This document shows, in pieces, positions 23,052 through 52,081 of a stretch of DNA of 64,000 nucleotides. The notes under the pieces are model-generated. The model was given only the letters and a program-made list of their open reading frames with translations, was not told the origin of the DNA and did not search any database. Position numbers and translations under genes: made by a program. Numbering within the stretch: position 1 is the stretch's first letter; each line of letters begins with the position of its first letter. The DNA is from Streptomyces sp. NBC_01591 (GTDB lineage: Bacteria > Actinomycetota > Actinomycetes > Streptomycetales > Streptomycetaceae), in contig NZ_CP109327.1 of NCBI RefSeq assembly GCF_035918155.1, forward strand, positions 6,696,001 through 6,760,000, in the 5' to 3' direction.

Positions 23052-23061
23052 GGGGATTCTC

Positions 23062-27880: not shown

Positions 27881-29116
27881 ATGGCCGACACCGTCATCGA
27901 TATCTCCGGCATAGGTCTGTTCCTCGGCCTGGACCTGGGCAAGGAGTTCCACCACGCCCGCGGCCTGACCGGGCAGGGCAAGACCGTCCACGACAAGAAG
28001 CTGCCCAACACCGAGGCCCGCCTGCGGGAGTTGTTCGACAAGCTCAGGGCCAAGTTCGGCACCGTCCTGGTGATCGTGGACCAGGTCGCCAACATCGGCG
28101 CGCTGCCACTGACCGTGGCCCGCGCGACCGGCTGCCGGGTCGCTTACCTGCCGGGACTCTCGATGCGCCGGGCCGCCGACCTCTACCCGGGCGAAGCCAA
28201 GACCGACGCCCGCGACGCCTTCGTCATCGCCGACACCGCCCGGACCATGCCGCACACCCTGCGCGCGGTGGACCGCGACGACGAGAAGCTGGCCGAGCTG
28301 ACCATGCTCACCGGCTACGACAACGACCTGGCCGGCGAGGTCAACCGCACCTCCAACCGGCTGCGCGGCCTGCTCTCCCAGATCCATCCCACCCTGGAGC
28401 GGGTGGTCGGCCCCCGGCTGGGCTACCCCTACATCCTGGCCCTCCTTGAACGGCACGGCTCCCCGGCCAGGCTGAAGAAACTGGGCCACGCCCGCTGCGA
28501 GGCCCTGCTCAAGGCGCACGGCTCGCGCAAGGCCCACCACCTCACCGCGGAGATCTTCGACGCGCTTGCCGAGCAGACCGTCATCGTGCCCGGCACCGAG
28601 GCCAGCGCGCTGATCGTGCCCGGACTTGCCGCCCAGCTCGCCGCCGCCCACACCCAGCGCCGCCAGGCCGAGCAGGAGATCGCCGCCCTGCTGGAGGCCC
28701 TCCCTCTTTTCCACCTCCTGACCTCCATGCCCGGCATGGGCGTCAGGACCACCGCCGCCGTGATCGTCGCCATCGGCGACGGCACCACCTTCCCCACCGC
28801 AGGACACCTCGCCTCCTACGCCGGACTCGCCCCCGCCACCAAGTCCTCGGGCACCTCCATCCGTGGCGAGCACGCACCCCACCGCGGCAACCGACTCCTC
28901 AAACGCGCCCTCTTCCAGGCCGCGTTCGCCGCGATCGGCTGCAAATCCGACCGCTCCTCCCGCACCTACTACGACCGTCAACGCGCACGCGGCAAGACCC
29001 ACACCCAAGCGATCCTCCGCCTGGCCCGCCAACGTGTGAACGTCATCCACGCAATGATCCGCACCGGGGCCCTCTACGAACCACGAACCCCCGGCGACAT
29101 CGGCCTCGCGGCCTGA
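27881..29116 (+). CDS. IS110-family DEDD transposase
   Basis: The ATG at 27881 follows GAAGAGGGG and gives 411 residues. The N-terminal RuvC-like DEDD domain starts with LFLGLDLGKEFH (first Asp), with further acidic residues in VIVDQVANIG and the AKTDARDAFVIAD block. The C-terminal transposase_20 domain carries SMPGMGVRTTAAVIVAIGD and the conserved Ser region FPTAGHLASYAGLAP. Both halves have normal length and no internal stop, so the enzyme is probably active. It catalyses RNA-guided recombination through a circular intermediate in related elements. Confidence 0.95.
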   Translation: MADTVIDISGIGLFLGLDLGKEFHHARGLTGQGKTVHDKKLPNTEARLRELFDKLRAKFGTVLVIVDQVANIGALPLTVARATGCRVAYLPGLSMRRAADLYPGEAKTDARDAFVIADTARTMPHTLRAVDRDDEKLAELTMLTGYDNDLAGEVNRTSNRLRGLLSQIHPTLERVVGPRLGYPYILALLERHGSPARLKKLGHARCEALLKAHGSRKAHHLTAEIFDALAEQTVIVPGTEASALIVPGLAAQLAAAHTQRRQAEQEIAALLEALPLFHLLTSMPGMGVRTTAAVIVAIGDGTTFPTAGHLASYAGLAPATKSSGTSIRGEHAPHRGNRLLKRALFQAAFAAIGCKSDRSSRTYYDRQRARGKTHTQAILRLARQRVNVIHAMIRTGALYEPRTPGDIGLAA

Positions 29117-37132: not shown

Positions 37133-37137
37133 CGGGC

Positions 37138-37467
37138 TCAGACCGTGGGGTCCGGAGCGGACCGGGTCCAGTGGACCCTGACCATGAAGTGGCCCTCGAC
37201 CGCGGTCTTGGCGATCACCACACCGGACTCGGCGTTGAACTTCATCCCGAACTCGATCTCGTACTCGTCCGGTCCCAGCGCCTGGACCGAGTCGATCACC
37301 GACCGGATCGCGGGGCGGGCCTGCGCGAGGGCGTCCTCCAGTCGCCGGCCGGCCCGGACGACCTCGCCCGAATCCCGGGAGATCCGTTCGAGCCCCGGCG
37401 CGTCATCGGCCACCTCGACCTGCAGCGAGGCTCCGTCCGGCCCGTCGAAGGACACTACCTCGGTCAT
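37138..37467 (-). CDS. Trypsin-co-occurring domain 1 (Trypco1, CU044_2847-like) protein
   Basis: This 109-residue protein starts at ATG 37467 behind AAGGGGA. It contains a short beta-rich N-terminus (VVSFDGPDGASLQVEV), a helix with the pattern ARPAIRSVIDSVQALGPDE, and EYEIEFGMKFNAESGVVIAK. The last block is characteristic of the family found beside trypsin-like proteases in bacterial conflict loci. The protease-STAND gene follows after 5 bp. It is likely the substrate or regulator of the protease. This is family-level prediction, not shown. Confidence 0.85.
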   Translation of the reverse strand: MTEVVSFDGPDGASLQVEVADDAPGLERISRDSGEVVRAGRRLEDALAQARPAIRSVIDSVQALGPDEYEIEFGMKFNAESGVVIAKTAVEGHFMVRVHWTRSAPDPTV

Positions 37468-37635
37468 CAAGTCCCCTTGCGGTAGCGGTTGTTGGATACG
37501 ATCACGCCTTCCGGTGGATCGATCATAATGGCCGGAACAGCAGATCGGCGCAGGATTCGGGGATGCGATGATGCACCCTCGGTGCGGCCCACGACGGCTT
37601 CGCCGAGTCGGCGCACCCGGGGGACGGAGACCGTC
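37468..37635. promoter_or_regulatory. Divergent promoter interval of Trypco1 and coiled-coil gene
   Basis: These 168 bp separate two divergent genes. An AT-richer stretch near 37520-37535 (GATCGATCATAATGG) could hold a -10 element. No operator palindrome was recognised. Confidence 0.35.
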
Positions 37636-38607
37636 GTGAACGATGCCGGACGTGAGATCGCCGCCGCCCTGGACGACGCCGGGACGGGCGGCACGGAAGC
37701 CGCGGTCGCACTGCGGGTGCTCGGCCGGGCCTTCCGGTGGGCCGCGTCGGCGCTGGCCGAGGTGGAGGACGGTGCCGGTGGCGCCCATGCGCTCGCCGCT
37801 CTGTACGACCTGGACGAGGCGCTGGAGGAGAGCCGTGCACTCGCCGACGCACTGCCCGCACTGCTGGTTGCCGCCATGCCCGGGGACCAGGTCGGCGGCG
37901 GCACCGAGGCGCTGATGCGGCAGCTCGCCGAGGTCGCCGACCGGGTCGAGAGCGAACGCGCCGCCCTGGAGAAGCTCGTCGCCACCGAGGAGGCGCTGCG
38001 CAGCCGGCTCGCCCGGCACGGGGCGCTGCGCCGGCAGGTCGATGAACTGCGCCGCCTGGAACGGCTGGTGCTCGCCCTGGACGCCCTCCAGGAGCAGCAA
38101 CAGGTGATCGCGGACCGGCTGGCCGACCTGCGGGGCCGGGACGCCGGGGTCGACGAGGCGCTGCGCACCAGCAGCGACGCCCTTGTGCGACTCTCCGAGG
38201 ACAGGCTCGCCGCCCTCGCCCCCCAGACCCGGCAGATCCTCGAACGGGCCGCCGCCGCGCAGCGCGCACTGGCCGCGGAGGAGCGCGAGCACGACGAGGG
38301 AGCGGCCGAACTCGCCCTGTTCGAGGAGCGGTTGGAGCAGATCAGGGACGCGTGCGGCGCGCGGGTCGCCTCCTTGCAGAAGTACGCGGCCGTAGACCGG
38401 GACCTGGCCCGTGCGCTCGGCGCGTTGCCGGAGGCGCCCGCCGGTACCGCCACCGCACGGCAGCGGCTCTCGCTGGCCGAGGTGGAGGCCGCCATGGCCG
38501 ACATCGAGAGCCGGCTCCGCGCGGCCGACGAGGCGCTCCGGCAGGTGCTGACGGAACGCGAAGCCCAGGAGCGGGACGGGAGGTTCACTGTCCCGTGGGC
38601 GGGGTGA
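37636..38607 (+). CDS. Coiled-coil protein of unknown function
   Basis: The preferred start is GTG 37636, with GGAG eight bases upstream; the longer frame to 37489 runs through the divergent promoter. The 323-residue protein is almost entirely helical and charged, with heptad-like stretches from about residue 90 to the end (for example LEKLVATEEALRSRLARHG and RRLERLVLALDALQEQQQ). There is no enzyme motif, signal or membrane segment. It is the only gene on this strand within the conflict cluster, convergent with the tandem AAA gene (45 bp gap) and divergent from Trypco1. A scaffold or sensor role is a guess. Confidence 0.75.
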   Translation: MNDAGREIAAALDDAGTGGTEAAVALRVLGRAFRWAASALAEVEDGAGGAHALAALYDLDEALEESRALADALPALLVAAMPGDQVGGGTEALMRQLAEVADRVESERAALEKLVATEEALRSRLARHGALRRQVDELRRLERLVLALDALQEQQQVIADRLADLRGRDAGVDEALRTSSDALVRLSEDRLAALAPQTRQILERAAAAQRALAAEEREHDEGAAELALFEERLEQIRDACGARVASLQKYAAVDRDLARALGALPEAPAGTATARQRLSLAEVEAAMADIESRLRAADEALRQVLTEREAQERDGRFTVPWAG

Positions 38608-38652: not shown

Positions 38653-41271
38653 TCACCAGGCGGGCGGGTCGGGGACGTCCTCGGGCAGGAACTCCGAAGG
38701 GGCCGCTCGCCCGGGAGCCTCGGGGTCGTAGCGGGCGGCCATCCGCGCTTCCATGAGCTCCAGCAGTTTGCGCACCGTGCGGGCATTGCCGAACGCGGCC
38801 GGGTCGGCCCGACGGGTCGCTTCGAGCCAGGCGGCAGCGCGCTCCGGTACGCCCCGGGCCAGCGTGCAGCGCTCGCTCGCGGCCATGCGGCGGAGGATCT
38901 CGATCAGGTCGCCGATGCCGTAGTGGGGGAAGGGCACACGTGTCGTGAAGCGGGACGGCAGGCCGGAGTTGGCGGCCAGGAAGGCGTCGATCTCACGGGG
39001 GTAGCCCGCCGCGATCACCACGAGGCGGCCCCGCCGGTTCTCCATCTCCTGGACCAGCGTGTCGATCGCCTCCTTCCCGAAACCCCCGTGCTGGATGTCG
39101 CTCACGAGGCTGTAGGCCTCGTCGATGAACAGCACCCCGTCCAGCGCGTCCTGCACGGCCTGCCGCACCTGCCGTGCGGTGTGCCCCAGGTAGGCGCCGA
39201 CCAGGGAGGCGCGGCCGACCTCCACCACATGCCCCTTGCGCAGCAGGCCCAGGTCGCGGAACATCGCCCCGGCCAGCCGGGCCACGGTGGTCTTGCCGGT
39301 CCCCGGCGGCCCGGTGAACAGCAGATGCGGCGGGGCGAACCCGCCCTGGCCCCGGGCCTGTCGCAGCCGCAGCCGGTTGGCCAGGTCCGTCAGCACCTCG
39401 CGCACCGGTCCGAGCCCTACGTACGCGTCGAGTTCGGCCAGCAGTTGCGCGGGATCCGGCGCGGGCCGTTGCAGGAAGGCGCGGTAGTTCTCGGGTACGT
39501 CCCCGGGGGCGACCGGTTCGTCCACCCGGCCGCGCACGCGGCGGGCCCACTGCTTGAAGACGCTGTCGGCGAGGGTGCGCATGTCGCGGGCGTTACCGAA
39601 GGAGTCGCTCCGCGCGTGGTGCATCCCCGTGATGATCTCCCGCAGCCGGTCCTCGGTGTCGGCCGAGGGCCGGGCGCCGCGTTCCGCCAGCCGGCGCAGC
39701 GCGATGGTGTGCAGGGTCTGTGGCGGGTAGTCGGGGAAGCGCAGGATGTTGTCCTCGGGGAACCGGCTCGCCAGACCGGGGTTGGCGGCCAGGAACTCCG
39801 CCATCTTGTCCGGGTATCCGGCGACGATCACGACCAGCCGGGCGCGGTCGTTCTCCATGCGCGCGAGCAGCGTCAGAATGGCCTCGTCGCCGAAGCCGCC
39901 GCTCTGATCACTCAGTCCGTACGCCTCGTCGATGAACAGCACCCCGTCCAGCGCCCTGTCGATCGTCGCGTCGCTCAGCCCCGCCGTCTGACCGATGAAA
40001 CCGGCCACCAGGTCCCGCATCTTCGCCTCGACGACATGACCCCGGTCCAGCAGCCCCAGATCGCGGTAGAGCTCCCCGACCAGGCGGGCGACCGTGGTCT
40101 TCCCGGTGCCCGGGTTTCCGGTGAACACCAGGTGCAAGGAGGGCGGTTCGGCCGCCTCGGCGCGGCCGTCGGCGCGCAGCACCTCCATCGTCTCGACCTC
40201 GGCCCGCAACTGCTCGAAGTGCTCCCGGACCACGTCCAGGCCGGGCATGGCCGCCAGCCGTTCCCACGGACCGCGGGGGTCGGCCGGGGTGACGCCCGCG
40301 CCCGCGTCGCGTACCGCCGCCGCGCTCAACGCGGTGCCCGGTGGTTCGGCCAGCTCCGCCAGCCACGCCGCCCAGTTGCGCGCCTTGCGGGGATGGGTCG
40401 CCATGGCCCGGACGATCGTGTCCAGCTCCCGCCAGTCCTCGATCCGGAGCCCCGACCGGAGCCGCACGGCATGGATCAGCCGCTCCGTCTCGGCCGCCTG
40501 CGGATAGTCGATCCTGGCGGTGCCGGGCCGTCCCGGCTGCCTGGCCTGCTCGCGTACGAACGTCTCCAGCAGCGGGTAGTCGTGGCACGTCTCCACGAAC
40601 TGCGCCACGTCCTCCAGACTGGGCTTCGAGAAGACCAGCACCCACAGATTGCCGTTGTCGTGCTGCGCGGCCCAGTTGGCCATGGCACCTGCCAGGGGCC
40701 GCGACGCCCGGTTGTAGCGCAGGTAGTTCTCGGCGTGCGGGACGACGACGGCCGTACGGCCGTCGCGCTGCCGGAGACAGTCGACCAGCGTCATGACGGC
40801 GAACGGGTCGGACAGTGCCGAGGCCGGTCGCGGCGGGCCCGTGCGGTCCTGGCGCGGTCCGGGGGCCCCGTCGGGGGTGCCGCCAGGGGGACTGCCGGGG
40901 GTGCGTGCACCGGTCACCAGGAGGTTGCCCATCGGCCCCCGCATGCCCGGGGTACGCATCGTGCGCGGCCCGGATGCCGGGACCTGCCGCGCGGCGGGGG
41001 ACCTGCGGGACAGGTCGCGCGAGGCCGAGTCCCGGAAGTACAGCGGATGGTCCGTCGAGCTGAACACGATTCGCTCGTAGCCGGCGGCCCGCAGTCGCCG
41101 CCACAGCACCTGTTCCAGTGTGCACACCTGGTAGGCGCTGTCGACGAAGACATCGTTCACGCCCGGCCCGTAGAAGATGGTGAACGGCTCACCGCTGCGC
41201 AGGTCGGCTCCGCCGAACCGTTCCACTACAGGCCCGGAGAAAGCGGAGGAAGCGGGCGGTCCTTCGGTCAT
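38653..41271 (-). CDS. Tandem CbxX/CfxQ-type AAA ATPase
   Basis: In 872 residues the N-terminal about 330 form an unrecognised domain. It starts with PVVERFGGADLRSGEPF and has an AVVVPHAENYLRYNRAS stretch. Two AAA modules follow: GNPGTGKT (about 385) with VLFIDEAYGL, and GPPGTGKT (about 655) with VLFIDEAYSLV. Both have arginine-finger-type SRFP/SRF segments and the FGNAR-(D/T)-(M/V)-R sensor region typical of the SpoVK/CbbX family. The start overlaps the stop of the coiled-coil gene by 4 bp, placing it last in the operon. CbbX-like ATPases remodel partner proteins; the partner here is unknown. Confidence 0.9.
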   Translation of the reverse strand: MTEGPPASSAFSGPVVERFGGADLRSGEPFTIFYGPGVNDVFVDSAYQVCTLEQVLWRRLRAAGYERIVFSSTDHPLYFRDSASRDLSRRSPAARQVPASGPRTMRTPGMRGPMGNLLVTGARTPGSPPGGTPDGAPGPRQDRTGPPRPASALSDPFAVMTLVDCLRQRDGRTAVVVPHAENYLRYNRASRPLAGAMANWAAQHDNGNLWVLVFSKPSLEDVAQFVETCHDYPLLETFVREQARQPGRPGTARIDYPQAAETERLIHAVRLRSGLRIEDWRELDTIVRAMATHPRKARNWAAWLAELAEPPGTALSAAAVRDAGAGVTPADPRGPWERLAAMPGLDVVREHFEQLRAEVETMEVLRADGRAEAAEPPSLHLVFTGNPGTGKTTVARLVGELYRDLGLLDRGHVVEAKMRDLVAGFIGQTAGLSDATIDRALDGVLFIDEAYGLSDQSGGFGDEAILTLLARMENDRARLVVIVAGYPDKMAEFLAANPGLASRFPEDNILRFPDYPPQTLHTIALRRLAERGARPSADTEDRLREIITGMHHARSDSFGNARDMRTLADSVFKQWARRVRGRVDEPVAPGDVPENYRAFLQRPAPDPAQLLAELDAYVGLGPVREVLTDLANRLRLRQARGQGGFAPPHLLFTGPPGTGKTTVARLAGAMFRDLGLLRKGHVVEVGRASLVGAYLGHTARQVRQAVQDALDGVLFIDEAYSLVSDIQHGGFGKEAIDTLVQEMENRRGRLVVIAAGYPREIDAFLAANSGLPSRFTTRVPFPHYGIGDLIEILRRMAASERCTLARGVPERAAAWLEATRRADPAAFGNARTVRKLLELMEARMAARYDPEAPGRAAPSEFLPEDVPDPPAW

Positions 41272-42644
41272 GCGCTGCCCTCCGCGGGACGCTCCGAGCG
41301 CTCGCGGTGCCTCGCGATGTCGGGCAGCCTCGGGTCGGGTGCCCCCGGTTCGGACACCGGCGCGGCCGGCACCGGGTGGCCGTCGTCCTGGATGGCCCGG
41401 ATGACCATCTCGGCCCGGTCCTGGAGCTCGGCCTCGGCGGTGGTGTCGTGGTCGTACGACAAGACCCGCACCACGTGCTGCCCGGAGTCCCGGTCGGTCT
41501 GCGAGATGTCGAGCACGATCTCGTTGCCGTTCGCATGGCGGAGCTTGGCGTAGTAGGAGCCGCGCGGGTCAGCGTCCTCGTACTCGCCGTCGACGAATTC
41601 GTAGTAGGCCATCCCGGAGAGGGCCTGAGTCACCGCGTCCGCCAGGTTCACCCGGATCTGCGAGGACAGATGCCGCAGACACGCCTGCCCCACGGTGTCG
41701 CCGAGCGCGTTCTCCAGCCGGGGCGCTTCCTGTTCCCGCAGCCGCCGCAGTTCGTCCGTGCCGGTCCGGTCGTCACGGGCGAGCGCCAGCCCCTGTGCGG
41801 TCTCCTGCCGCAGCCGCTCCACCGCGCCGTCCGCCCAGTAGTCGACGTCCACCGTGTACCCGCCCAGCGGCAGCCCGTCGGGGCCCACGACCGGCTGACT
41901 CCGGCTGCCCTCGATCGCGTTGTCCACCGTGACCAGGGCGTCGATCGCCGCGATCTGCGCCGTGCAGCGCTCCAGTTCCCGCTGCTCGGTCTCCGCCCGC
42001 AGCTCGCTGAGCGAGTGGTACGTCTCCTGCGCCATCGCGAGCGCCGCGTCGAACCTGCCCTGCGCCGCGTTCTGCTCCGCCGTCGCCAGCCGGCCCGTCA
42101 GCCGGTCGAGCTCACCGGGCGCGTACCGCTCGTGCAGCCCCGCACGGGCCACCGCCCCGGCCATCGCCTGTGCGTCGGACAACCAGGCCCGTACCAGCTG
42201 ACCGGCCCGCGTGCGGTCCTCCTTCCACCAGTCGATCTCCGCGGACAGCCGGGCCGTCTCGGCCCGTCGCTCGGCACGTTCCGCCGCGATCGCCTGCCGT
42301 ACCCGCTCCTGCTGTTCGGCCAGCCGCTGCCGGGTCTCCTGCCGGAGCTGTCCGGCGGACGCGGCCAGCTCCCCGCGCAGTTCCGTGGCCTGCCGGCTGA
42401 GCCGGCGCGCGGTGTCGGCCTCCAGCTGCCGGGTCTGCTCGCTCAGCTCCTGGACCATCGACTCGTGCCGCTGCTGCCGCTGCTCGACCTCGGTGAACAC
42501 CCGGTCGAGGTCGGCCGCGGTCTGCTCCCGCACCGCGTCGATCAGCCGGGGGACATTGCGCTGCACCTCCTTGAGCTGCTGAGCCTTGCGCTGGATGCGG
42601 TACCACTCCGACTCGTCGACCTGGATGCGCTTCCTACCGCTCAT
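41268..42644 (-). CDS. Long coiled-coil protein of the GTPase cluster
   Basis: The ATG at 42644 lies behind AGGAA and gives 458 residues. Residues about 20-190 are a long Gln/Arg/Glu-rich coiled coil (for example TRQRLAEQQERVRQAIAAER). The C-terminal 170 residues look globular and beta-rich, with EIVLDISQTDRDSG and VRVLSYDH. Its start overlaps the radical SAM gene by 11 bp and its stop overlaps the AAA gene by 4 bp. No enzyme motif is seen. It may bridge the ATPase to other components. The longer frame to 42929 was rejected because it runs into the radical SAM gene. Confidence 0.85.
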   Translation of the reverse strand: MSGRKRIQVDESEWYRIQRKAQQLKEVQRNVPRLIDAVREQTAADLDRVFTEVEQRQQRHESMVQELSEQTRQLEADTARRLSRQATELRGELAASAGQLRQETRQRLAEQQERVRQAIAAERAERRAETARLSAEIDWWKEDRTRAGQLVRAWLSDAQAMAGAVARAGLHERYAPGELDRLTGRLATAEQNAAQGRFDAALAMAQETYHSLSELRAETEQRELERCTAQIAAIDALVTVDNAIEGSRSQPVVGPDGLPLGGYTVDVDYWADGAVERLRQETAQGLALARDDRTGTDELRRLREQEAPRLENALGDTVGQACLRHLSSQIRVNLADAVTQALSGMAYYEFVDGEYEDADPRGSYYAKLRHANGNEIVLDISQTDRDSGQHVVRVLSYDHDTTAEAELQDRAEMVIRAIQDDGHPVPAAPVSEPGAPDPRLPDIARHRERSERPAEGSA

Positions 42645-43329
42645 GGGGTTCCTGTTCTCTGACGGCCTCTCGCGCGGCCTCGGATACGTGGGGAGGTGCC
42701 GGGGCGGCCATACGGGCGCGGACGGCGTCGACCGCGCTGTCGAAGGCGCCGACCAGGCCCTGCGGGGGCACCCCGACGAGCAGCGCCTCCGGGCCGCTGA
42801 CAGCGATCTCGGCGGTCCGCGGCCGGTGCGCGAAGTCGTAACCGCCGCCCGCGTGCCGTGCGGTGAGATGGTGGACCCGCTGGTTGGAGCTGCCGCGCAG
42901 CCCGCGTCCGTCGTCCAGCGCGGCCACATACGGGCCGTCGATCAATACGTCGACCTCGGCGAGGAGTTCGGGCACGCCGGGTCCGGGCGGCCGGGTCCGC
43001 AGCCGTTCCAGCCGGTGGCCGGTGAAGCAGATCACGGAGACATCCCGGATCTCCTTCGCCGCCCTCGCCACCTCGGCCAGCCCGGCCGCCTGCGCCATCG
43101 GCTCACCACCGGAGAAGGTCAGCCCGCCGACGCGTGGATCGGCCAGCAACTCCTCGGCCAGTTCCCGCGGTTCGGCGCTCCGGGCCGGCCGGAAGGGAAT
43201 CCAGTCCGGCGCCATGCACCCGGCGCAGGACAACGGGCAGCCCTGGACCCACAGCACGGACCGCACCCCCGGCCCCAGCACCTCGGTGCCGACCCGGGTC
43301 GCCGCCACGTTCAGCGCGGTGCCGGTCAC
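42634..43329 (-). CDS. Radical SAM / 4Fe-4S single-cluster protein (NrdG-like fold)
   Basis: The GTG at 43329 overlaps the stop of the vWA gene (GTGA). The 231-residue protein has WVQGCPLSCAGCMAPD, giving the CxxxCxxC motif that binds the SAM [4Fe-4S] cluster, then TFSGGEPM (the SAM-binding GGE) and VICFTGHRLE. Size and order resemble NrdG/PFL-activase-type small radical SAM enzymes with one cluster only. It has no nearby ribonucleotide reductase or glycyl-radical enzyme, so its substrate is probably within this cluster. That is inference. Confidence 0.9.
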   Translation of the reverse strand: MTGTALNVAATRVGTEVLGPGVRSVLWVQGCPLSCAGCMAPDWIPFRPARSAEPRELAEELLADPRVGGLTFSGGEPMAQAAGLAEVARAAKEIRDVSVICFTGHRLERLRTRPPGPGVPELLAEVDVLIDGPYVAALDDGRGLRGSSNQRVHHLTARHAGGGYDFAHRPRTAEIAVSGPEALLVGVPPQGLVGAFDSAVDAVRARMAAPAPPHVSEAAREAVREQEPHER

Positions 43330-44891
43330 CGGGGCCACCCGTCGACCGGAGCGGGGCCCGGATCGGCGACATAGGTGAACGACACCCCGCTGACGACGAC
43401 TCTGCCTCCCGGGGCACAGGTGGCGTCGCTCTGCCGGGCGGTGGAACCGTCCGGCGTGTACCGGATACGGAGATCGATCCGCGGCCCCTGCTCCGTGGCC
43501 CGACGCCTGCCGAGCACCTGGCCGTGGCCGCCCACCGTCGGCGGCCCGAGCGCCATCCGGCGTCCCGCCAGCACGATGCGGTCCGGCAGTTGCTCGCCGA
43601 ACGCGGGTGCCAGCAGCAGCACACCGCGCAGCGGCGGCCGGTTGGTCCGCCGCCACCACAGCCAGACCGTGAGCGCCACCAGCAGAAGGGCGGCCACCAG
43701 CGCGGGCAGGAAGACCGCCGACCCCGCGGTCGCCCGCAGCGGCACGGCCGTCTGCCCGACGTGTATCGCGCGGGGTATGTCCAGCTCGACGTCGGGGGCG
43801 AGCGGGCGCTCCCACGACGAGCCGACCCGGCCGGTCAGCCGCAGTGCGGCATCGGCGTGTTCGGTACGCCGGTACGGCAGCGGGTTCCCCGCCGGCCGGC
43901 CGGTCAGCCGCACCTCGAACGTGCGGGACGCACCCGGCTCCAGGGTCACCCGGCCGGGCAGTCCGGCGACCTCGACGGACGGGCCGGTGATGGATGCCCG
44001 CAGGCCGGTGACGGTCAACGGCAGATGACGGGTCGTGGACCGGAGAGTGAGCCTCGCGGTCGCCGAGCCGCCGGTGAGGTCGATCCCGCCGGTGTCCTGC
44101 CAGTCGGCGTTCATGCCCCGGTCGGCGTCCCCGGCGAGCAACCGGGCGGCCTTGCGGGCGCGTGCCCGGTCGCCCGCGCGCGCCAGGTACCCGCCGAGGT
44201 CCTGGATGCTCTGCGGCCGGAGCACCGAGGTGTCCTGCACCACGTTCCCGAGCAGATCGGCGCCCGTCGCGCCGCTGCTCAACGGCATTGCGTACCCGGC
44301 GAGTTCGGTGCGCCGGGCGAGCGCCTGCGCCCGCTTGTGCAGCGCCGTCCAGGGCGCTCCCGAGGCGGTGGGGTAGCGGGAGCCGCGGGGCGGGTGGTGC
44401 TCGCCGTCGGTGAGCAGCACGATCGAGGCCACCGGGGAGGCGTCGTCGCGTGCGAGTTCGGTCAGCGCGGCGTTCAGCGCGGCGCCGATGTCGGTGTCAC
44501 CCGCGGGGTTGGGCCTGGACGGCAGCGCCGACACGATCGCCTCGGTGTTGCCGGCCGCGCCGATGTACCGCGGTTCGGGCCGGGAGTCGAACGTGAACAG
44601 CGCGACATGGTCCTTGGGCGTGAGGCCGTCCAGGAACCGGCGCAGTGTCGAACGGACGGTGCCGTACCGGCCGCCCTGCGCCATCGACCCGGAAGTGTCC
44701 ACGAGGATCACATGGTCGGCCGGCGCCTGGTCCAGCGCGAGCGCCCGGTAGATCTCGGCGCGGGTCGGGTCCTGATCACCGGGTGCCGCGTGCGCGGCCG
44801 TCACCGGCGTGGCCGCCAGTAGCGCCGCGGTGAGCACGGCGGCGCAGTTCCGCCCGAACCGGAGCGCCCACGACGGGCTTCTGTGCTTCAC
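43326..44891 (-). CDS. Secreted/membrane-anchored vWA domain protein
   Basis: The first about 35 residues are a classical signal peptide (basic start, CAAVLTAALLAATPVTAAHA, cleavage after AHA). The vWA domain follows at about 55-240, with VDTSGSMAQ (MIDAS DxSxS) and LLTDGEHH (second MIDAS Asp), so metal binding should be intact. Residues about 265-360 form beta domains. One transmembrane helix (VFLPALVAALLLVALTVWLW) is near 375, and a cytosolic FHA-like or beta tail follows with RRMALGPPTVGGHGQVLGRR. The protein thus links outside and inside. It overlaps the Hsp70-like gene by 4 bp. Confidence 0.88.
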   Translation of the reverse strand: MKHRSPSWALRFGRNCAAVLTAALLAATPVTAAHAAPGDQDPTRAEIYRALALDQAPADHVILVDTSGSMAQGGRYGTVRSTLRRFLDGLTPKDHVALFTFDSRPEPRYIGAAGNTEAIVSALPSRPNPAGDTDIGAALNAALTELARDDASPVASIVLLTDGEHHPPRGSRYPTASGAPWTALHKRAQALARRTELAGYAMPLSSGATGADLLGNVVQDTSVLRPQSIQDLGGYLARAGDRARARKAARLLAGDADRGMNADWQDTGGIDLTGGSATARLTLRSTTRHLPLTVTGLRASITGPSVEVAGLPGRVTLEPGASRTFEVRLTGRPAGNPLPYRRTEHADAALRLTGRVGSSWERPLAPDVELDIPRAIHVGQTAVPLRATAGSAVFLPALVAALLLVALTVWLWWRRTNRPPLRGVLLLAPAFGEQLPDRIVLAGRRMALGPPTVGGHGQVLGRRRATEQGPRIDLRIRYTPDGSTARQSDATCAPGGRVVVSGVSFTYVADPGPAPVDGWPR

Positions 44892-46279
44892 AGACGCACT
44901 CCCTTGGGATCGGTCCTGAGGTCGGTCGGCAGGTTGCCGAGCGGGAATTCCGCGGGCGCCCCGGCGTCCACCGGGTGCAGCACCAGCCGGGCCGTTCCGT
45001 CCACGGCGAGTCGGACACCCACATGGAAACGGTGGTTCCCGTCGCCGCCGGGCAGCGCCAGGGTGCGCACGGGCAGACTCACGGCCCCCTCGGGATCACG
45101 CACCCGCACCTCCACGGGCCGACCGGCCGCGGCTTCCGCCGGTCCGGTCCGCACCAGCAGCCGCTCTCCGCCCGCCTCCGCGAAGACCGTCGCTCCGCCC
45201 GGCTCCAGGAGTCCGGCCCCGCTGATCAGCAGCTCCTGGTCCTCCGGCCGTCCCGCCACCGTCCGATGGGCGCCCACGCACACGGCGTACGGGTAGCGGT
45301 CCGCCGGGTCGACCCGGCCCGCCGCGACCAGAGCGGCGCCGTACACCGCGGCGAGCGCCGGATCGCTGTCGGCGGGCAGCGGCACGAGGGGCCACCCGCG
45401 CCCTTCGAGATGACGCAGGAAAGGCGCGAACCGGGCGGTGCCGCCCACGGCGACCAGGCGGCCGACGGTGCCGCCGCCGTGGGCGGTCGTCTGCGTGGAC
45501 GCGCCGTCGTCCGGCGCTGCCCCTGCGCCGTCCAGCGCCTCGGCCGTCGCCAGGTCCAGGCCGGCCGTGAGCCGCCGCAGGGCCAGGCGGACCGTGCCCG
45601 CGGTGATGTCGCGCCCCGCCACACGGTGAACGGCGGTTGCGTCGTAACGGTCGGGTTGGCGCTCGGCGCGGTCGAGGGCGAGGTCCAGACGGAGCGCGGC
45701 GCCGTCCTCGGCCCGGACCGCGGCCAGGACCCGGCGGCCCGCCTCGTCGCAGGGCAGGCCCGCCTCCGCCAGGAGGGCCGCTTCGAAGCCGGCCCCGTAG
45801 CCGTCGGCGGGCGCATGCCGGGCGGTCCCGGAGACCGCGACCGCGCCGGCCGTCACCACGCACCCCGACACCTCGGCCGCCGCCGCCCCGAGGTCGCACA
45901 CCACGTACCGGCCGGCCGTCACCGTCCCCGCCTCCCGCAACAGGGCCAGCACGGCGTGCGGGGTGCTCAGGACGCTCAGGTGTGGCGTCCGGCCGGTTCC
46001 GTGCAGCCCGGTCAGCGCGTCGGCCTCGTGGCCCGACCGGTCCGGCCCGTCCCGCCGCGGAGCGACGATCACCAGCCGCTCGGGAACGCCGTGGTGTCGG
46101 ACGTACGCGGAGTAGGCCGCACGCAGGGCACCGTCACGGCGGCCGTCCTCCTCGGCCGGTACGGGCAGGCCCTCGCCGGGGACCGCACCCGGCAGCTCGA
46201 CGAGCTCCGGAGCCCCGTGCGCGCCGACGTGGGCGACCCGGGCGTACCGGGAGCCGATGTCGATGGCGACGCCCCTCAC
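44888..46279 (-). CDS. Hsp70/actin-fold ATPase without classical substrate-binding domain
   Basis: The 463-residue protein starts with GVAIDIGSRYARVAHVG (phosphate-1 loop), followed by VVCDLGAAAAEVSG (phosphate-2) and RLVAVGGTARFAPF (adenosine loop). The actin-like fold fills about 350 residues. The last about 100 are beta-rich and basic, not the DnaK peptide-binding domain. DnaJ and GrpE genes are absent. It overlaps both neighbours by 4 bp in the operon. Hsp70-like members recur in predicted GTPase-centred conflict clusters. Its client could be the GTPase or GAP1, which is inference. Confidence 0.85.
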   Translation of the reverse strand: MRGVAIDIGSRYARVAHVGAHGAPELVELPGAVPGEGLPVPAEEDGRRDGALRAAYSAYVRHHGVPERLVIVAPRRDGPDRSGHEADALTGLHGTGRTPHLSVLSTPHAVLALLREAGTVTAGRYVVCDLGAAAAEVSGCVVTAGAVAVSGTARHAPADGYGAGFEAALLAEAGLPCDEAGRRVLAAVRAEDGAALRLDLALDRAERQPDRYDATAVHRVAGRDITAGTVRLALRRLTAGLDLATAEALDGAGAAPDDGASTQTTAHGGGTVGRLVAVGGTARFAPFLRHLEGRGWPLVPLPADSDPALAAVYGAALVAAGRVDPADRYPYAVCVGAHRTVAGRPEDQELLISGAGLLEPGGATVFAEAGGERLLVRTGPAEAAAGRPVEVRVRDPEGAVSLPVRTLALPGGDGNHRFHVGVRLAVDGTARLVLHPVDAGAPAEFPLGNLPTDLRTDPKGVRL

Positions 46280-48921
46280 GTACGCCCCCGGTTCTTGAAC
46301 TTCTTGAGGAGGCCGCGGGGTTGACTGCCCTCCTGGTACTGCTGGGCGACGGTGCGGTTGTCGGGGCGCTCGGCGTATCCGGGGGCCTGGGGCGTCGGCG
46401 GAGGCGCTGTGGGCCCGGCGCCGGGTGCGGCCCCGGCGGGAGGGGCGGGCGACGGTCGGCGCACCGGTGGCTGGGGCGGCCGGTCGTAGCTGTGACCGGT
46501 CGCGCGCAGCGCTCCGAGGATCCGGCGGTGACGGCTCTCCTCATCGGCGCTGAAACGGACCAGCTGGTCGCGGACTTCCCGGTGCCGCGTGCTGCTGCCC
46601 AGCGCCTCGTACACCGCGAATCCGAGACCGTGCAGGCGCCGGTCCAGTTCCGTCGTGAGATTGAAGGCGAACCATGGCCCGAAGTCGCCCATGAGCGAGG
46701 CGATCTCGTCCAGCAGGCGGCCGGGGAACCGGCGGTCGGGGCAGGCGTCGGCGATGATGCGGCCGATCTCGCTCAGCTCGGCGCGGCCTTCGGCGGCCAC
46801 CCGCAGTCGCCGTACCGGGCGCAGCCACCCCAGGTCGCTGCGGTAGGCCAAGCCGTCGACCAGGTCCTGGGGGAGGTCGAGGCCGATCCAGCGGGAGTAG
46901 TCCGCCGAGTTGAGCCGCAGGGCCAGCCCGTCCCGGACGGTGGCCTCGGTGCTGGGCCGCTGCCGGATCCACCGGGAGAGCACCGCCCAGGAGTTGCCGG
47001 GGTCCGGCTCGTCGCCGAGCAGCGCCTCGACCACCCGGTCCTTCAACTCGGGGTCGCCCTCGGTCCGCCGCACGATCGTGGTGGCGTAGGCGTCGAGGCC
47101 GGCGCGGTCGGTGGTGAGCCGCCGCAGCCGCGGCATCGACAGGGCGAGCCGGGAATCGGCACCGTTCAGCCCGGCCAGCACCCGCAACAGGTCGGCGTCG
47201 GCGGCCGCGTCCGGCGGCAGGTCCGGCGCTCCGGGCGGTACCAAGGCGTCCAGCAGGGGCAGCACTTCGCGCTGTCTGCCACTGCCGACGACCTGCCGCA
47301 GGACGTCCCACAGCAGACCGACCACGGCCGGCCGGCCGTGTTGCCGCGCGGTCTCCAGAGCGATCCGCCACGCGTCCTCGTGCCCCGCGGCGAACTCGGC
47401 GGCGTCGGCCGGAAAGACCTCGGCCGGACCGAAGTGCCCGGTCAGCACCCCGGCGAAGCGCAGCCAGCCCGGCCTGCTTTCGACGCGGACCGACTCGGTG
47501 AGCGCCACCAGGCGGGACAGCGGCCGCAGGTCGCGGACCCGGTCCTGCAACAGCACGCGCAACCAGGCCAGCCCGGCTTCCCGGGAGTCGACCAGAGTGC
47601 GGTCGACCGCTTCGGAGATGTGCCCGAACTCGTTCTCCACCATGTACGCGAGCGACCCGACCCAGGCGGGGTCGTAGCCCTCGGTGGCGGCCAGGACGGT
47701 GAACAGCCGCTCGAACGAGCCGGGGTGCGGCACCTCCAGCCCGCGCAGCAGGTCCAGGTACCCCCTGGCCAGCGTGAGGGTCTCCTTCGACGCCGCACGG
47801 GCGACGACATCGGCGGCCAGCAGTTCCGGGACCAGCGGCGTCCAGTGCCGGGTCAGGACGGCCCGTGCGGCCCCGCCGTCCGGGCGCCGTGCGCACCCGG
47901 CCAGGAAGGTGACGACGACCCCGAGCCGTTGCTCGTCCAGCGATCCGACCGCCTGCAGATCCAGCAGCCGTTGTACGTCGTCGACCCTGCCGCGGCCCCG
48001 CCGGATGTCGTTCAGCACGGAGTCCAGCAGATCCAGCTCCTGCAGGACGCGTACCGCCACGGCGGATTCGTGCAACGGGACGGCGGCGGTGGCCGCCAGC
48101 AGGTGGGCCACCACTTCGGTGGTCGACTCCCGTTTCGCCCGCACCCGCAGCAGCTCGGCGAGATAGGTGCGGGCCGCTTCGCCCTGCGGGGCCGGCGGGC
48201 GGCCGGTGCGCAGCGGTACTTCCTGCTGTCCGGTCCGCGCGGAGGCGGCGAACACCAGCCGCAGACCGTGCTCGGCCTTGCCGGTCCAGGTGGCGCCGCT
48301 CAGCCAGGCACGGCATCCGTACGGCAGCAGCGAGCAGACGGCGTCCAGCATCCGTACCCGCTCGGCGACGTCCGGGACGGTGCCCCCGGGCGGCGGAGTG
48401 ATCACCAGCTGCCGGCCGTCCAGCAGCAGGGCGGCCATCCCGGCGGCCCACTCGAAGCCCAGCCGGTCCACCGTGCCCGCCAGGTCGGCGGCCGGAGTGC
48501 GTACCGCCGTCACGGCGGCGGCCTCGGGATCGGAAACGGACCCGTCCCGGGAGACGGCCCGGTCCAGCGCGGTCCAGGTCACCCCTGCACGGCTGGCCGC
48601 GTCCCATTCGAGAAGGAGCAGCCGCCAGGTGTAACTCGGCGCTCCGGTACCGTCCTTGGACCCGTCCCAGCTGGTGTCCACCACCGCGCAGACCGAACCG
48701 GTCTCCCGGTCCGCGCCGCTGAGAAACACCCTCCAGGGCAGGCCGCTCGCCGGATCGCGTGCGTCCGGGGTCCCGGTGGTGGCACTCCACAGATAGCGCT
48801 GGGCGCGGCCGGCCGGCAGGCTGCCGGCCAGCACCTCGTACCCCATGCTGCGGCCCGGATGCTTGCCGAGGACCGCCCACTCGGCGGCCGGCCCTTTCGC
48901 ACCGGAGCTGTCGCTCACCAT
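46276..48921 (-). CDS. GTPase-associated protein 1 (GAP1)-like protein
   Basis: The ATG at 48921 or the next codon GTG at 48918 starts the gene, overlapping the GTPase stop; length is 880-881 residues. The N-terminal domain starts AEWAVLGKHPGRSMGYEVLA and contains SYTWRLLLLEWD. A long helical middle follows, and the last 80 residues are a Pro-rich basic tail. This layout fits the GAP1 family named for its constant position beside TRAFAC-type GTPases in actinobacteria. The name means associated, not GTPase-activating; no arginine finger is implied. Confidence 0.8.
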   Translation of the reverse strand: MVSDSSGAKGPAAEWAVLGKHPGRSMGYEVLAGSLPAGRAQRYLWSATTGTPDARDPASGLPWRVFLSGADRETGSVCAVVDTSWDGSKDGTGAPSYTWRLLLLEWDAASRAGVTWTALDRAVSRDGSVSDPEAAAVTAVRTPAADLAGTVDRLGFEWAAGMAALLLDGRQLVITPPPGGTVPDVAERVRMLDAVCSLLPYGCRAWLSGATWTGKAEHGLRLVFAASARTGQQEVPLRTGRPPAPQGEAARTYLAELLRVRAKRESTTEVVAHLLAATAAVPLHESAVAVRVLQELDLLDSVLNDIRRGRGRVDDVQRLLDLQAVGSLDEQRLGVVVTFLAGCARRPDGGAARAVLTRHWTPLVPELLAADVVARAASKETLTLARGYLDLLRGLEVPHPGSFERLFTVLAATEGYDPAWVGSLAYMVENEFGHISEAVDRTLVDSREAGLAWLRVLLQDRVRDLRPLSRLVALTESVRVESRPGWLRFAGVLTGHFGPAEVFPADAAEFAAGHEDAWRIALETARQHGRPAVVGLLWDVLRQVVGSGRQREVLPLLDALVPPGAPDLPPDAAADADLLRVLAGLNGADSRLALSMPRLRRLTTDRAGLDAYATTIVRRTEGDPELKDRVVEALLGDEPDPGNSWAVLSRWIRQRPSTEATVRDGLALRLNSADYSRWIGLDLPQDLVDGLAYRSDLGWLRPVRRLRVAAEGRAELSEIGRIIADACPDRRFPGRLLDEIASLMGDFGPWFAFNLTTELDRRLHGLGFAVYEALGSSTRHREVRDQLVRFSADEESRHRRILGALRATGHSYDRPPQPPVRRPSPAPPAGAAPGAGPTAPPPTPQAPGYAERPDNRTVAQQYQEGSQPRGLLKKFKNRGRT

Positions 48922-50129
48922 GGCCGCCGCCTGCGCCCGGCCGCGCGGATCCGGCTCTCCAGCTCGGTCAGTGGTTCGAGGACGTTGATGGGTACGGGGG
49001 AGGTGCAGATCCGGGGGACGCGGTCGACGGTCTCCACATTGAGGTAATTGCGGTAGTCGAAGATGTGCTGGGGGTTGAGCCGGAAGCCGATCGCCGACGA
49101 GACGTAGTACGAGATGCGCTGCGGGTGGAAGAAGTTCAGCAGCCCGTCCCGTACGAGCCGGGCGTTGGAGCCCCGGAATTCGTCGCACAGCCATTGGAAG
49201 TAGTGGGCGGCCTGCTCCGCGGGCACTCGGGGCAGCCGGGAACCCACGGAGTCCTGGGTCACCCAGCCGGCCTCCACCGCCGGGCGGAACACCTTGGGGT
49301 CGTCGAACTTGGTGACGCAGACGGAGACATGGTGCGGCAGCCGGTTCCGGTGGAGCCGGCCCGCGTCCCGGACACGGGTGTTGAGCTCATTGAGCATCGA
49401 GTAGAGGAAGTCGAAGCTGTTGGTCGCCTGTTCGGCATCGAGCAGTGGGTCGAAGAGGTAGATCAGGCCCTGGGAACGGGTCAGTTGGTCGAGTACCCGT
49501 GGGCGCAGCGCGTGTTCGGTGTCCTTCCCGTAGACCTCGCCCGCCACGTCCTGGACCTCCAGTACGAAGCCCACCTCACGGCGCTTTCGGAACGAACCGT
49601 TCGGTGCTTCCTCGCCCTGGAAGGACCAGGACAGGGACCGCACGCCCACGGTGGCCTCCGGGAACACCCGGTCGCTCGCCAGCTGGGTCACGCCGGAGGT
49701 GAGGAATTCATTGGACTCCGGATTCATCCCGCTGATCACCCAGTTGGGGCGGCCCTGTCGCTGCTGCTGCATCGCGGCGATGGGCATCGCGGCCAGATAG
49801 GACGTCTTGCCGGAGCGCGGGGCGCCCCACAGCGCGATGCGGATCCGGTCCGTGGCGGTGGCCGCCGTGCCGTTCGGAGGCGCCGGGATCGCGGCCGGTT
49901 CGAGGGATCCGTCCCATCCGGAATATGAGGAGTGGGAGGACCGCGACGCATGGTGGTCGGGGAAGTACTCGGTCCCCGTCTCCTCCGGGCGGGCGACGGA
50001 CGGCGGGGTGGTGTCGGGCCAGTGAAGTGTCGTGGCCTCCGAGGGGTCGGAGGGCGGCGGGGTCGCCGGTGTGGAGGGACCGCCCGAGTCCTGCGGGTTC
50101 TCGTTGGGGTCGTAGTACGGATCGGACAT
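48915..50129 (-). CDS. TRAFAC-type GTPase
   Basis: The ATG at 50129 follows GAGGAGA. The first about 100 residues are acidic, Pro/Ser-rich and disordered. The GTPase domain then shows GAPRSGKTSYLAAM (G1/P loop), VQDVAGEVYG (G3, DxxG) and VCVTKFDD (G4, T/NKxD). It is 404 residues and cytosolic. The gene lies second in the operon, 29 bp after the zinc-ribbon protein and overlapping GAP1. GTPases of this kind are the proposed switches of the conflict systems described in the summary. What they sense is unknown. The longer frame to 51686 is a shadow and was rejected. Confidence 0.9.
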   Translation of the reverse strand: MSDPYYDPNENPQDSGGPSTPATPPPSDPSEATTLHWPDTTPPSVARPEETGTEYFPDHHASRSSHSSYSGWDGSLEPAAIPAPPNGTAATATDRIRIALWGAPRSGKTSYLAAMPIAAMQQQRQGRPNWVISGMNPESNEFLTSGVTQLASDRVFPEATVGVRSLSWSFQGEEAPNGSFRKRREVGFVLEVQDVAGEVYGKDTEHALRPRVLDQLTRSQGLIYLFDPLLDAEQATNSFDFLYSMLNELNTRVRDAGRLHRNRLPHHVSVCVTKFDDPKVFRPAVEAGWVTQDSVGSRLPRVPAEQAAHYFQWLCDEFRGSNARLVRDGLLNFFHPQRISYYVSSAIGFRLNPQHIFDYRNYLNVETVDRVPRICTSPVPINVLEPLTELESRIRAAGRRRRPW

Positions 50130-50158
50130 GGTGTTTCTCCTCGTACCGGAACGGCGGA

Positions 50159-52081
50159 TCACAGCAGGGGAGTGGCTAGGGCCAGGCGGCAGGGCGGACC
50201 GTCCCACCGCCACGCGGGGGCGAGGGCATCGGCCACACCGGCCGCGGTGTCGTCGCCCCGGAGAAAGGAACGGCCGGAGGAGAGGGTGCCCCACGCGGCG
50301 GCGGTGTAACGCTGTACGGGACTCGCGGAGCCGTCGACGTGCGGGTGGGCCCGGTCCAGCCGGGTCATGACCCGAATCCCGCGGGCCCGCAGGCTGTTCA
50401 GCTCGACCCGCCAGTCGGCACCGAGCGGACAGGACGGCACCATGTCGTGCTGCTCGGGCGGTCCGGGCGGGCGGCGGCCGACGATCAGCACGGCGCGCTC
50501 GGCGTCGGGGCGCAGGGTGCCGTTCGTCGGCGCCGTGGCGAGCCGGACCTTTCTGAGCGCGTCCTCCAGGGACGAGGCGGTGTCCTGTTCGCGCCGGGCG
50601 GGACGCCATCCGGCCAGGGCGGCGTGGGCCGCCATCGCGGGTCCGGGCGGGACCGTCAGCAGGAGCACGGAGCGGGGGGTGTAGCTGTTCTCGTGGATGA
50701 CGTGGTCGTAGTGGCCCACGACGCCGACGCGGAGGCTGTTGCCGGAGCCCGGGCGGCGGGCCAGGGCCGCGATGACCTCCTGGGTGAAGGCCAGCCGCTC
50801 GGCGGTCTCCGCCGGTTCGGCACCGCTCATCTCGACGGTGAAGAAGACTTCCAGGGCAGGGGGCCGGATGATGCCGCGGGGGAGGCGACCGACGAGCGCG
50901 GAGATGTCCGGTGTGCGGCCGTCCGCGGTGCCGTTCGTCGCCCGGCCGCTCGGGGACCCGCCCGCCGGCCCGGCCAGGGTCACTTCCCCCGGTCCGTGCA
51001 GGACGAACGCCAGCCGCGCCGGAGCGAAGGCGGTGAGCGCCGTCCGCCGCGCGGACAGCACCACCGGTTCCGAGCCGTCCGTGCCCGCGTCGGCCAGCAC
51101 GGGCAGTACCACCGGCACGCGGTCGGCGGGCCCGCCGTACACGGTGATCTCCGCGGTCGCGGTCTCCCCGTGCCGGAGTCGGTACCCGGCGGGAAAGAGC
51201 ACATGGGTGTGCGTGCGTACCGCACCGGTCCCGGGGTCGACCCGGGCGAGCAACAGCGTGTGGTCGGCCGGCAGTGGCGCCGTACGCAGCGACTCGCGCA
51301 CCGCGTCCGCCGTGTCGGTCCTGGGCGTACCGTCCGGCTCGGCGGGGTTCGCCGGCACCGGGCCGATCTCGGCCCGCAGCGGGTACGTGGCGCGAAGCAG
51401 GGCCACGGCCCGGTCCAGCAGGGTCCAGCCGGACCGGCGGTTCACCAGCACGATCGAGTGGGCGCACGAGGGCGGTACGAATTCCCGGAGCCACCGCGTC
51501 ACCGCCGTGTCGAAATCCCGGCGGTCGGGCACCGGAAGCGTGCCGATTCCGCCCGCGAGCTGGAATCGAAGAAATTCCGGGCGGCGGTCGAGCGACGGAG
51601 CGGCCGATCCCCACTTCGTGGTTCCGGCGTCGGACTGCCGAGGTATTCCGCTCGCATCCGCGACGACCTTGATCACAGTTATGCAATCGGGAGTGAATTC
51701 GACGAACAACAATGCATCGATACGGCCGTTGACCAGGTCGGTGAGGGCTTGCCGCACCGGTGCGGAGTCATGCGCCGGGAGGTTTCCCGGGGAAGGGGGC
51801 CACTGCGCCGGAGTCCGTTCGCCGGGCTTCGCCGGTCCGCCTCGCAGCACCGACGCCGACCGCGCCCCGTGACCGGAGTCCGCGAAGGCCAGCTCCGTCG
51901 CCCGTATGTCCCAGGCGTGCTCGGCGGCCAGCAGCGCGGCGCGGGCGGCCTCCCGCTCCTTCTCGGACATTTCCCCCAGGACCGGATCCCCGTACATCCG
52001 CCATCCGCAGACTCCGCAGAGAACTCCGCCCTCGTCAGGTGTTCCGCAGACCGGACATCCTCGTTCGATCCTTCCGGTCAA
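50159..52081 (-). CDS. Zinc-ribbon protein with degenerate vWA-like C-terminal domain
   Basis: The only usable start in frame is TTG 52081, with a weak AAGGA three bases before it. The N-terminal CPVCGTPDEGGVLCGVCGW (CxxC-x8-CxxC) is a zinc ribbon. The C-terminal third (from about 400) reads EVFFTVEMSGAEPAE, LRVGVVGHYDH and ERAVLIVGRRPP. This is the strand pattern of a vWA domain, but the MIDAS aspartate is replaced by Glu and the second acidic site is not evident. The 640-residue protein is the first gene of the GTPase operon. It may be the platform or adaptor for the other components; that is inference. Confidence 0.75.
   Translation of the reverse strand: MTGRIERGCPVCGTPDEGGVLCGVCGWRMYGDPVLGEMSEKEREAARAALLAAEHAWDIRATELAFADSGHGARSASVLRGGPAKPGERTPAQWPPSPGNLPAHDSAPVRQALTDLVNGRIDALLFVEFTPDCITVIKVVADASGIPRQSDAGTTKWGSAAPSLDRRPEFLRFQLAGGIGTLPVPDRRDFDTAVTRWLREFVPPSCAHSIVLVNRRSGWTLLDRAVALLRATYPLRAEIGPVPANPAEPDGTPRTDTADAVRESLRTAPLPADHTLLLARVDPGTGAVRTHTHVLFPAGYRLRHGETATAEITVYGGPADRVPVVLPVLADAGTDGSEPVVLSARRTALTAFAPARLAFVLHGPGEVTLAGPAGGSPSGRATNGTADGRTPDISALVGRLPRGIIRPPALEVFFTVEMSGAEPAETAERLAFTQEVIAALARRPGSGNSLRVGVVGHYDHVIHENSYTPRSVLLLTVPPGPAMAAHAALAGWRPARREQDTASSLEDALRKVRLATAPTNGTLRPDAERAVLIVGRRPPGPPEQHDMVPSCPLGADWRVELNSLRARGIRVMTRLDRAHPHVDGSASPVQRYTAAAWGTLSSGRSFLRGDDTAAGVADALAPAWRWDGPPCRLALATPLL

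Follow-up and report, generated by a model that had tools for sequence, protein, structure and literature searches.

The stretch analyzed here, which we call the window, comprises 64,000 nucleotides of Streptomyces sp. NBC_01591 (contig NZ_CP109327.1, positions 6,696,001 to 6,760,000), and it contains a compact gene cassette in which a GTPase, an Hsp70-like ATPase, vWA proteins, a radical SAM enzyme and a double AAA ATPase are joined to a protease. An earlier inspection of the letters alone (the sequence-only reading) had delimited eight genes in this place, and our analysis bears this out: g1–g8 span 38653..52081, all on the minus strand, and the seven joints that had been described as overlaps or short gaps are six overlaps of 4–11 bp and one gap of 29 bp. 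The GTPase, Hsp70-like protein, AAA protein, radical SAM enzyme and exported vWA protein named in that reading are likewise present. The cassette extends beyond g8 through a coiled-coil gene (ccp), a Trypco1 adaptor gene and a gene for a trypsin-NTPase-TPR protease, which lie at 32651–38607 and are conserved downstream in relatives, for a total of 11 genes (Table 1).

Table 1 Coordinates, strand and assignment of the 11 cassette genes in the window (aa, amino acids).
Gene	Coordinates	Strand	Assignment
g1	50159..52081	-	CxxC/CxxC zinc-ribbon-like N-terminus (by eye), alpha/beta region ~106-240, beta-sandwich ~270-370, C-terminal vWA fold 406-626
g2	48915..50129	-	TRAFAC-like GTPase, DO-GTPase-like; motifs GAPRSGKT, DVAGE, TKFD
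g3	46276..48918	-	GAP1-like, GTPase partner; Pfam GAP1-M E 0.006, under cut-off
g4	44888..46279	-	Hsp70/actin-fold ATPase-like; family profile against Hsp70 structures E 5.4e-6
g5	43326..44891	-	Signal peptide, exported vWA, one transmembrane helix, cytosolic C-terminal domain (signal, transmembrane helix and topology by eye)
g6	42634..43329	-	NrdG/PFL-activase-like radical SAM; CX3CX2C, SGGEP, RGSxNQ; Fer4_12 E 1e-30
g7	41268..42644	-	Rod protein, N-terminus MSGRK, predicted helix 12-168, C-terminal beta-alpha domain
g8	38653..41271	-	Double AAA+ ATPase, CbbX/SpoVK/EccA class; own N-terminal domain; both Walker A and B motifs intact
ccp	37636..38607	+	Convergent coiled-coil gene at the g8 3' end; orthologues in relatives
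Trypco1	37138..37467	-	Trypco1 adaptor, 109 aa; PF19493 E 5.1e-24, above cut-off; orthologues in relatives
Protease	32651..37132	-	Trypsin-like protease, P-loop region (GRSKAGKSR), TPR protein, 1493 aa; Trypsin_2 E 2.2e-11 (above cut-off), TPR models

The GTPase motifs are kept in most loci, with the P-loop present in 17 of 17, the Walker B DxxGE with its conserved glutamate in 15 and [TA]KFD in 16. Among 16 members of the g2 family, DO-GTPase2 is matched at E ≤ 0.01 in six (best 2.1e-4) and DO-GTPase1 in four, and hhalign joins g2 to the Pfam-positive DO-GTPase2 protein of a locus in the same genus (L067) with 81% probability. For g3, which was searched from an alternative start at 48921, 5 of the 18 relatives in its family reach GAP1-M at E ≤ 0.01. 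Because the GTPase and GAP1 scores lie under the cut-offs, membership of the published GAP1-N2 class is provisional. The Hsp70-like g4 is joined by hhalign to the Pfam HSP70 protein of L067 with 93% probability, and no cassette protein has a Pfam match to GrpE. FNIII is also without a Pfam match among g1–g8, and a beta-sandwich is predicted in g1. The vWA domain of g5 is clear (VWA_2, E 4e-14) and its metal ion-dependent adhesion site is intact (DTSGSM); in two loci (L024 and L025) g5 is without this domain and, by eye in the alignment, keeps the transmembrane and cytosolic part.

The radical SAM enzyme g6 matches the NrdG model at E 2.7e-25, under its cut-off, and PFL-activating enzyme at E 8e-7 by profile; its cluster and GGE motifs are intact in 17 of 17 loci. 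The AlphaFold2 model of the rod protein g7 has an overall pLDDT (predicted local distance difference test) of 83.6, yet only 50–56 across residues 11–70. A search of g7 against the PDB returned nothing at E ≤ 0.001, and in an alignment of its relatives nearly all start with MSGxK. The best families of g8 are SpoVK, EccA and CbbX, each under its own cut-off (SpoVK narrowly), and it matches the CbbX structure at E 1.9e-44 and EccA1 at E 8.7e-43. Two other assignments of g8 were considered and ruled out: a MoxR-clade AAA, given these best families, and an FtsH double AAA with an inactive first domain, as Walker A and B are preserved in each of the two AAA domains.

The cassette is accessory and patchy. 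The sequence-only reading had named conservation in the core of all Streptomyces, with a housekeeping phenotype, as the outcome that would speak against it; instead, 11 of 392 genus genomes contain g7, as do 7 of 199 relatives. Of 199 genus genomes, 9 carry an orthologous GTPase (E ≤ 1e-110) and 18 if any relative is counted, with the genome of the window included in the counts of g7 and of the orthologous GTPase. Across the phylum, g7 occurs in two of 396 genomes, namely its own and one with a weak match (E 1e-4). In an empty-site check, the flanking DNA matched 55 of 61 genomes only piecemeal, with the longer pieces at ~65–75% identity.

Gene order was scored in Streptomycetaceae loci that hold an orthologous GTPase or g7 and could be read across the span. 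The proposal that the eight genes act as one unit is upheld by their common order in 13 of these 16 loci (the window locus, L016, L019, L021–L025, L087–L090 and L113), and stands corrected as to the end of the unit, which continues past g8 to the protease slot. The exceptions are L020, which is probably misassembled, L101 and L115. The DNA read stops inside the first gene in L089 and L113 and inside the last gene in L016, L019, L021 and L022; genomes with contig breaks inside the cassette, G662 (L091, L104, L017), G707 (L103, L118, L018) and G1151 (L117), were left out of the count. L021 and L099/L100 belong to one genome and were counted once.

Proteolysis as the output is indicated most strongly by the presence of two unrelated proteases in the same slot. 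Twelve Streptomycetaceae loci were read beyond ccp (L020 is included here and not among the ordered loci; L016, L019 and L022, whose DNA ends in g8, were left out). In nine of them the slot holds Trypco1 and the trypsin-TPR protein (the window, L020, L100, L092, L094, L095, L087, L088 and L116), and in two it holds a CHAT protein, which is caspase-like and unrelated to trypsin (L089, E 1.8e-39; L090, E 3.6e-42; 62% identical to each other). The catalytic motifs are kept in both types, with His, Asp and Ser intact in the trypsin protein of the window and His and Cys present in the CHAT proteins of L089 and L090. ccp, Trypco1 and the protease adjoin g8 in L100, L092, L094, L095, L087, L088 and L020, and in L016, where the DNA read ends in g8 on one side, a CHAT-like protein of 430 aa is encoded on the other, upstream of g1. 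Two gene boundaries require care here. The longer open reading frame (ORF) at 37138–38292 overstates Trypco1: two relatives align to it only from residue 276, and a third aligns from residue 69, in which the gene caller also picked an over-long ORF. The Pfam search of ccp likewise used a longer ORF, 37489–38607.

Distribution and output together bear on the idea that the cassette regulates development or housekeeping in filamentous bacteria and plays no part in conflict. The named g7 relatives come from Streptomyces, Kitasatospora and mostly filamentous cyanobacteria, as this idea would lead one to expect; against it, 381 of 392 genus genomes are without g7 and the outputs are exchangeable, and we consider it improbable.

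What stays most constant in the cassette is a trio of g6, g7 and g8, not the GTPase/GAP1 pair. We followed the trio through loci of Streptomycetaceae, three genomes of another family, f18 (L064–L066), and one of Calothrix. The nearest cassette gene before g7 is g6 in all 20 loci read on that side, directly so in 18, and the next gene after g7 is g8 in 20 of 20 (L064 carries two copies of g7). One gene lies between g6 and g7 in the remaining two: in Calothrix a small ORF on the opposite strand, and in L113 a TnpB-like gene (8077–9273, assigned by eye, 74% identical to L075_15), in a cassette that is also without a protease. In f18 the trio stands in a different order of genes, namely a DUF4407 protein, g6, g7, g8, g1, GTPase, GAP1-like, g4-like and ccp-like, where the g4-like and ccp-like matches are weak (E 3e-8 to 6e-18). 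The profile does not reach the gene at the GAP1 place in L093.

In Calothrix sp. PCC 6303, the trio is on the mobilizable plasmid pCAL6303.02 (L098), where the order is Hsp70 (PF00012, E 3.9e-12), a TPR protein, radical SAM (profile E 4.9e-68), g7 (2.6e-53) and AAA (6.7e-205). A DO-GTPase2 gene (E 3e-15, above cut-off) lies ~5.6 kb beyond the trio on the other strand; according to PMC7159879, which defined the DO-GTPases, their systems are nearly absent from cyanobacteria. Dynamin-family and vWA genes are present in the same plasmid region (1–25084), along with a second gene matching DO-GTPase2 under threshold (20765–21763, E 0.0013) and a third with a P-loop by eye (21934–22923). At E ≤ 0.001, 174 proteins resemble the Calothrix g7, and among the 120 listed many are named cyanobacteria; comparison of this g7 with viral contigs gave no result of use. 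The trio also keeps different company within Streptomyces. Genome G1210 (L115/L116) has the trio, ccp, a g4-like gene (E 6e-9), Trypco1 and the trypsin-TPR protein together with three replacement genes, which encode a g1-like protein (first 158 profile positions, E 4.6e-16), a 270-aa protein and a 642-aa protein. The C-terminal part of the g1-like protein (L115_4) is WD40-like by eye only. PDB searches with the 270-aa and 642-aa proteins were negative, so that the labels GrpE-like and Hsp70-like given to them by eye are unsupported by sequence tests; comparison of the 642-aa protein with Hsp70-like proteins by BLAST and hhalign was also negative.

Some of these parts recur in related loci. In L067 (96–19852), a distant sister of the cassette, one strand carries a run of CHAT, RES, vWA, PP2C, kinase, radical SAM, a 496-aa protein, AAA_2, HSP70, DO-GTPase2 and a full GAP1-N2/M/C protein, and every product except the 496-aa protein, which has no match, scores above its Pfam cut-off. 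This run links a radical SAM enzyme and a CHAT protein to an undoubted DO-GTPase/GAP1 system, and its CHAT protein is 45% identical over 666 aa to that of L090. Radical SAM relatives also lie near AAA_2 proteins in L070, L073, L074 and L075, with a protein kinase in L073 and L075 as well; the pairing of radical SAM and AAA thus recurs in these two loci, where no g2-like GTPase is matched. Sets of g1, GTPase and GAP1-like genes accompany protein kinase-PQQ genes in L028 and L029, like the kinase theme of Kaur et al. 2020, and the same core occurs with vWA in L107–L110. In L026 (17401–19416) a VMAP-M18/caspase protein and an AAA gene adjoin two GTPase/GAP1-like sets, so that a VMAP-type and a GTPase-type system stand side by side, although PMC7159879, in the parts used here, reports that tubulin-type GTPase and VMAP systems are mutually exclusive in actinobacteria.

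We favor, with modest confidence, the reading that the locus is an 11-gene membrane-linked conflict cassette, probably of an abortive-infection-like kind, whose output is proteolysis. Detection of a trigger would fall to g5, the anchored vWA protein, and to g1 with its vWA and zinc-ribbon parts, and the DO-GTPase-like g2 with the GAP1-like g3 would set the threshold of the response. The Hsp70-like g4 might then act with g8, the CbbX-type double AAA, in assembling or remodeling a complex based on the rod g7. The rod may be modified by the radical SAM enzyme g6, a step proposed only because the two genes are constantly adjacent. The change of state would free the terminal protease, either the trypsin-NTPase-TPR protein held by Trypco1 or the CHAT protein, and the freed protease would cut cell proteins and halt the infected compartment. 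What the sequences themselves show is the set of parts and the order in which they stand, unbroken active-site motifs, a patchy distribution, the swap of one protease for another and a trio that occurs in varied company. We infer the nature of the trigger, this order of action and the death of the cell, like the conflict role itself, from sequence comparison.

A bolder version, which we put forward tentatively as a possibility, places the engine of the system in the trio, not in the GTPase. The NrdG-family radical SAM enzyme, the MSGxK rod and the CbbX-type double AAA might form a core into which sensors and outputs are plugged in both Actinomycetota and Cyanobacteriota, with the rod licensed by a g6 modification (possibly radical-dependent) that the AAA protein reads, so that a conflict system would be armed by protein modification. 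With the same reserve, the sensors may be a DO-GTPase/GAP1 pair together with vWA, or else a WD40-type g1 joined by an Hsp70-like pair (labels given by eye in this second case), and the outputs may be trypsin-TPR, CHAT and perhaps STAND-TPR. The conservation of g6 could also be read as the mark of a system for modifying proteins or producing peptides, where a modified product made by the radical SAM enzyme would be matured with the help of the AAA, the Hsp70-like protein and the protease. The motifs of g6 are intact in all 17 loci compared, and the single mention of radical SAM in the parts of PMC7159879 used here concerns FtsH ternary systems with a putative peptide effector. The overlaps between the genes, though, leave little space for a precursor gene, although ORFs shorter than 60 aa within or next to them were not searched systematically, and g6 resembles NrdG and PFL activases, with no SPASM model among its 19 NCBIfam matches. 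This account seems to us quite unlikely.

Several observations weigh against a conflict cassette with a proteolytic output. The g2 protein of the window matches Pfam DO-GTPase1 at E 0.036, under the cut-off; neither GAP1-N2 nor GAP1-C is matched across the 18 g3 family members, and hhalign does not join g3 to the Pfam-positive GAP1 protein of L067 (0.9% probability). The slot of one of the 12 loci (L114, genome G1213) holds neither protease, and in three f18 loci no relative of trypsin-TPR, Trypco1 or CHAT is found past ccp by the profiles used. Genome G1210 is without GTPase, GAP1 and g5; a fourth f18 genome (L071) has a DUF4407-like gene, fragments of g6 and g8, and no g7; and L101 (G576) is a lone GTPase orthologue with a stop inside the match. 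The phage collection contains no relatives of g2. PADLOC-DB 2.0.0, run on the eight genes g1–g8 without Trypco1 and the protease, returns only generic AAA (IetA, TRIP13 and others), radical SAM (pVip) and coiled-coil matches. The literature searched shows no phenotype for any cassette member and no experimental test of the GTPase branch, and nothing in it concerns this cassette by title or abstract start.

Work at the envelope or in secretion would be just as fitting for an exported vWA protein with an EccA-like AAA, which leads to the alternative of an envelope-stress or cell-wall homeostasis module. Here the exported vWA would sense the wall or membrane, the GTPase and AAA would remodel a membrane complex, and the protease would serve as regulated quality control. 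The exported and anchored appearance of g5, the retention of its membrane and cytosolic part in L024 and L025 (by eye), the DUF4407 proteins that precede the radical SAM gene in f18 and a passing mention in PMC11237479, in the part used here, that DO-GTPases are predicted for membrane-related stress all suit such a module. Its patchy presence (11 of 392 genus genomes), the swapping of unrelated proteases in one slot and the methylase-helicase set adjoining the cassette do not, and we regard it as rather unlikely. The conflict cassette remains our preferred reading, and it fits the prediction of Kaur et al. 2020 (PMC7159879) that conflict systems gated by NTPases and armed with proteases exist in multicellular bacteria. 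The locus looks like an unstudied response of such bacteria to attack. It is a compact, modular case in a tractable Streptomyces, combines exchangeable proteases with an unexplained radical SAM-rod-AAA core that cyanobacteria share, and lets protection, protease output and the radical SAM target be tested directly.

The surroundings in the window are consistent with a defense-type island, although they are not proof of one. On the minus strand at 17979–27472 lie genes for a 1690-aa Eco57I/MmeI-type methylase, an SNF2/DEAD helicase (989 aa) and a Ser/Thr kinase (465 aa), a set that we take to be possibly a DISARM- or type IIG-like defense locus; among the matches listed, the methylase has full-length relatives at 48% on two Streptomyces plasmids. 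An IS110-family transposase gene (27764–29116) stands between this set and the cassette. On the other flank are a MocA-type oxidoreductase, a phosphopantetheinyl transferase and an S58 peptidase. Farther away, an AAA_15/AAA_21 protein with DUF3696 is OLD/AbiEii-like (10616–11764), and a HATPase_c protein is followed by a Roadblock/LC7 protein (61757–63549), presumably as in the conservons of Streptomyces.

Compared with known systems, g8 is of the same AAA class as EccA1 and CbbX, the latter being the red-type Rubisco activase, and differs from both in its tandem AAA domains and extra N-terminal domain; no Rubisco or ESX gene is recognized among the 11 proteins. The MoxR-vWA ternary systems and their FtsH subtype (Kaur et al. 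2020) share with the cassette an AAA and a vWA protein, two AAA domains per protein, a radical SAM gene and signaling peptidases, whereas the AAA of the cassette is of the CbbX/SpoVK/EccA class and the GTPase/GAP1 pair is extra. The adjoining genes for Trypco1 and a trypsin-like protease resemble a pair in VMAP systems, as given in the parts of that paper used here (passages on Trypco1 also occur in the part of PMC10907252 used); in the window no VMAP or MoxR gene is recognized and the pair instead ends a GTPase/radical SAM/AAA cassette.

The closest kin are the DO-GTPase/GAP1 (GAP1-N2) systems, which the parts of PMC7159879 used here describe as predicted conflict systems in which three themes are linked, namely tubulin, HSP70-GrpE and kinase-PP2C. 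In the literature covered, they appear beyond that paper only in passing in PMC11237479 and in an alignment-method paper. The sequence-only reading had related the locus to predicted actinobacterial conflict systems; this kinship stands, the published class is reached only at sub-threshold Pfam scores, and the overall interpretation is partly supported. No tubulin, GrpE, protein kinase or PP2C is recognized in the cassette, and as to the kinase-PP2C theme, neither is among the 11 genes, the kinase at 26075–27472 lying beyond the IS110 element. CHAT is not named as such in the main text of PMC7159879 as far as used here, and neither the core nor the output of the cassette is described in the sections covered. 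The shared features are a GTPase gene followed by a GAP1-like gene, vWA and Hsp70-like proteins, a link to the membrane, and, mobility itself apart, the patchy neighborhoods and variable effectors of the class, seen here in the 11 of 392 genomes and the exchange of trypsin for CHAT. To these the cassette adds a radical SAM enzyme, the g7 rod, a CbbX-type double AAA, a convergent coiled-coil gene and an output of either Trypco1-trypsin or CHAT.

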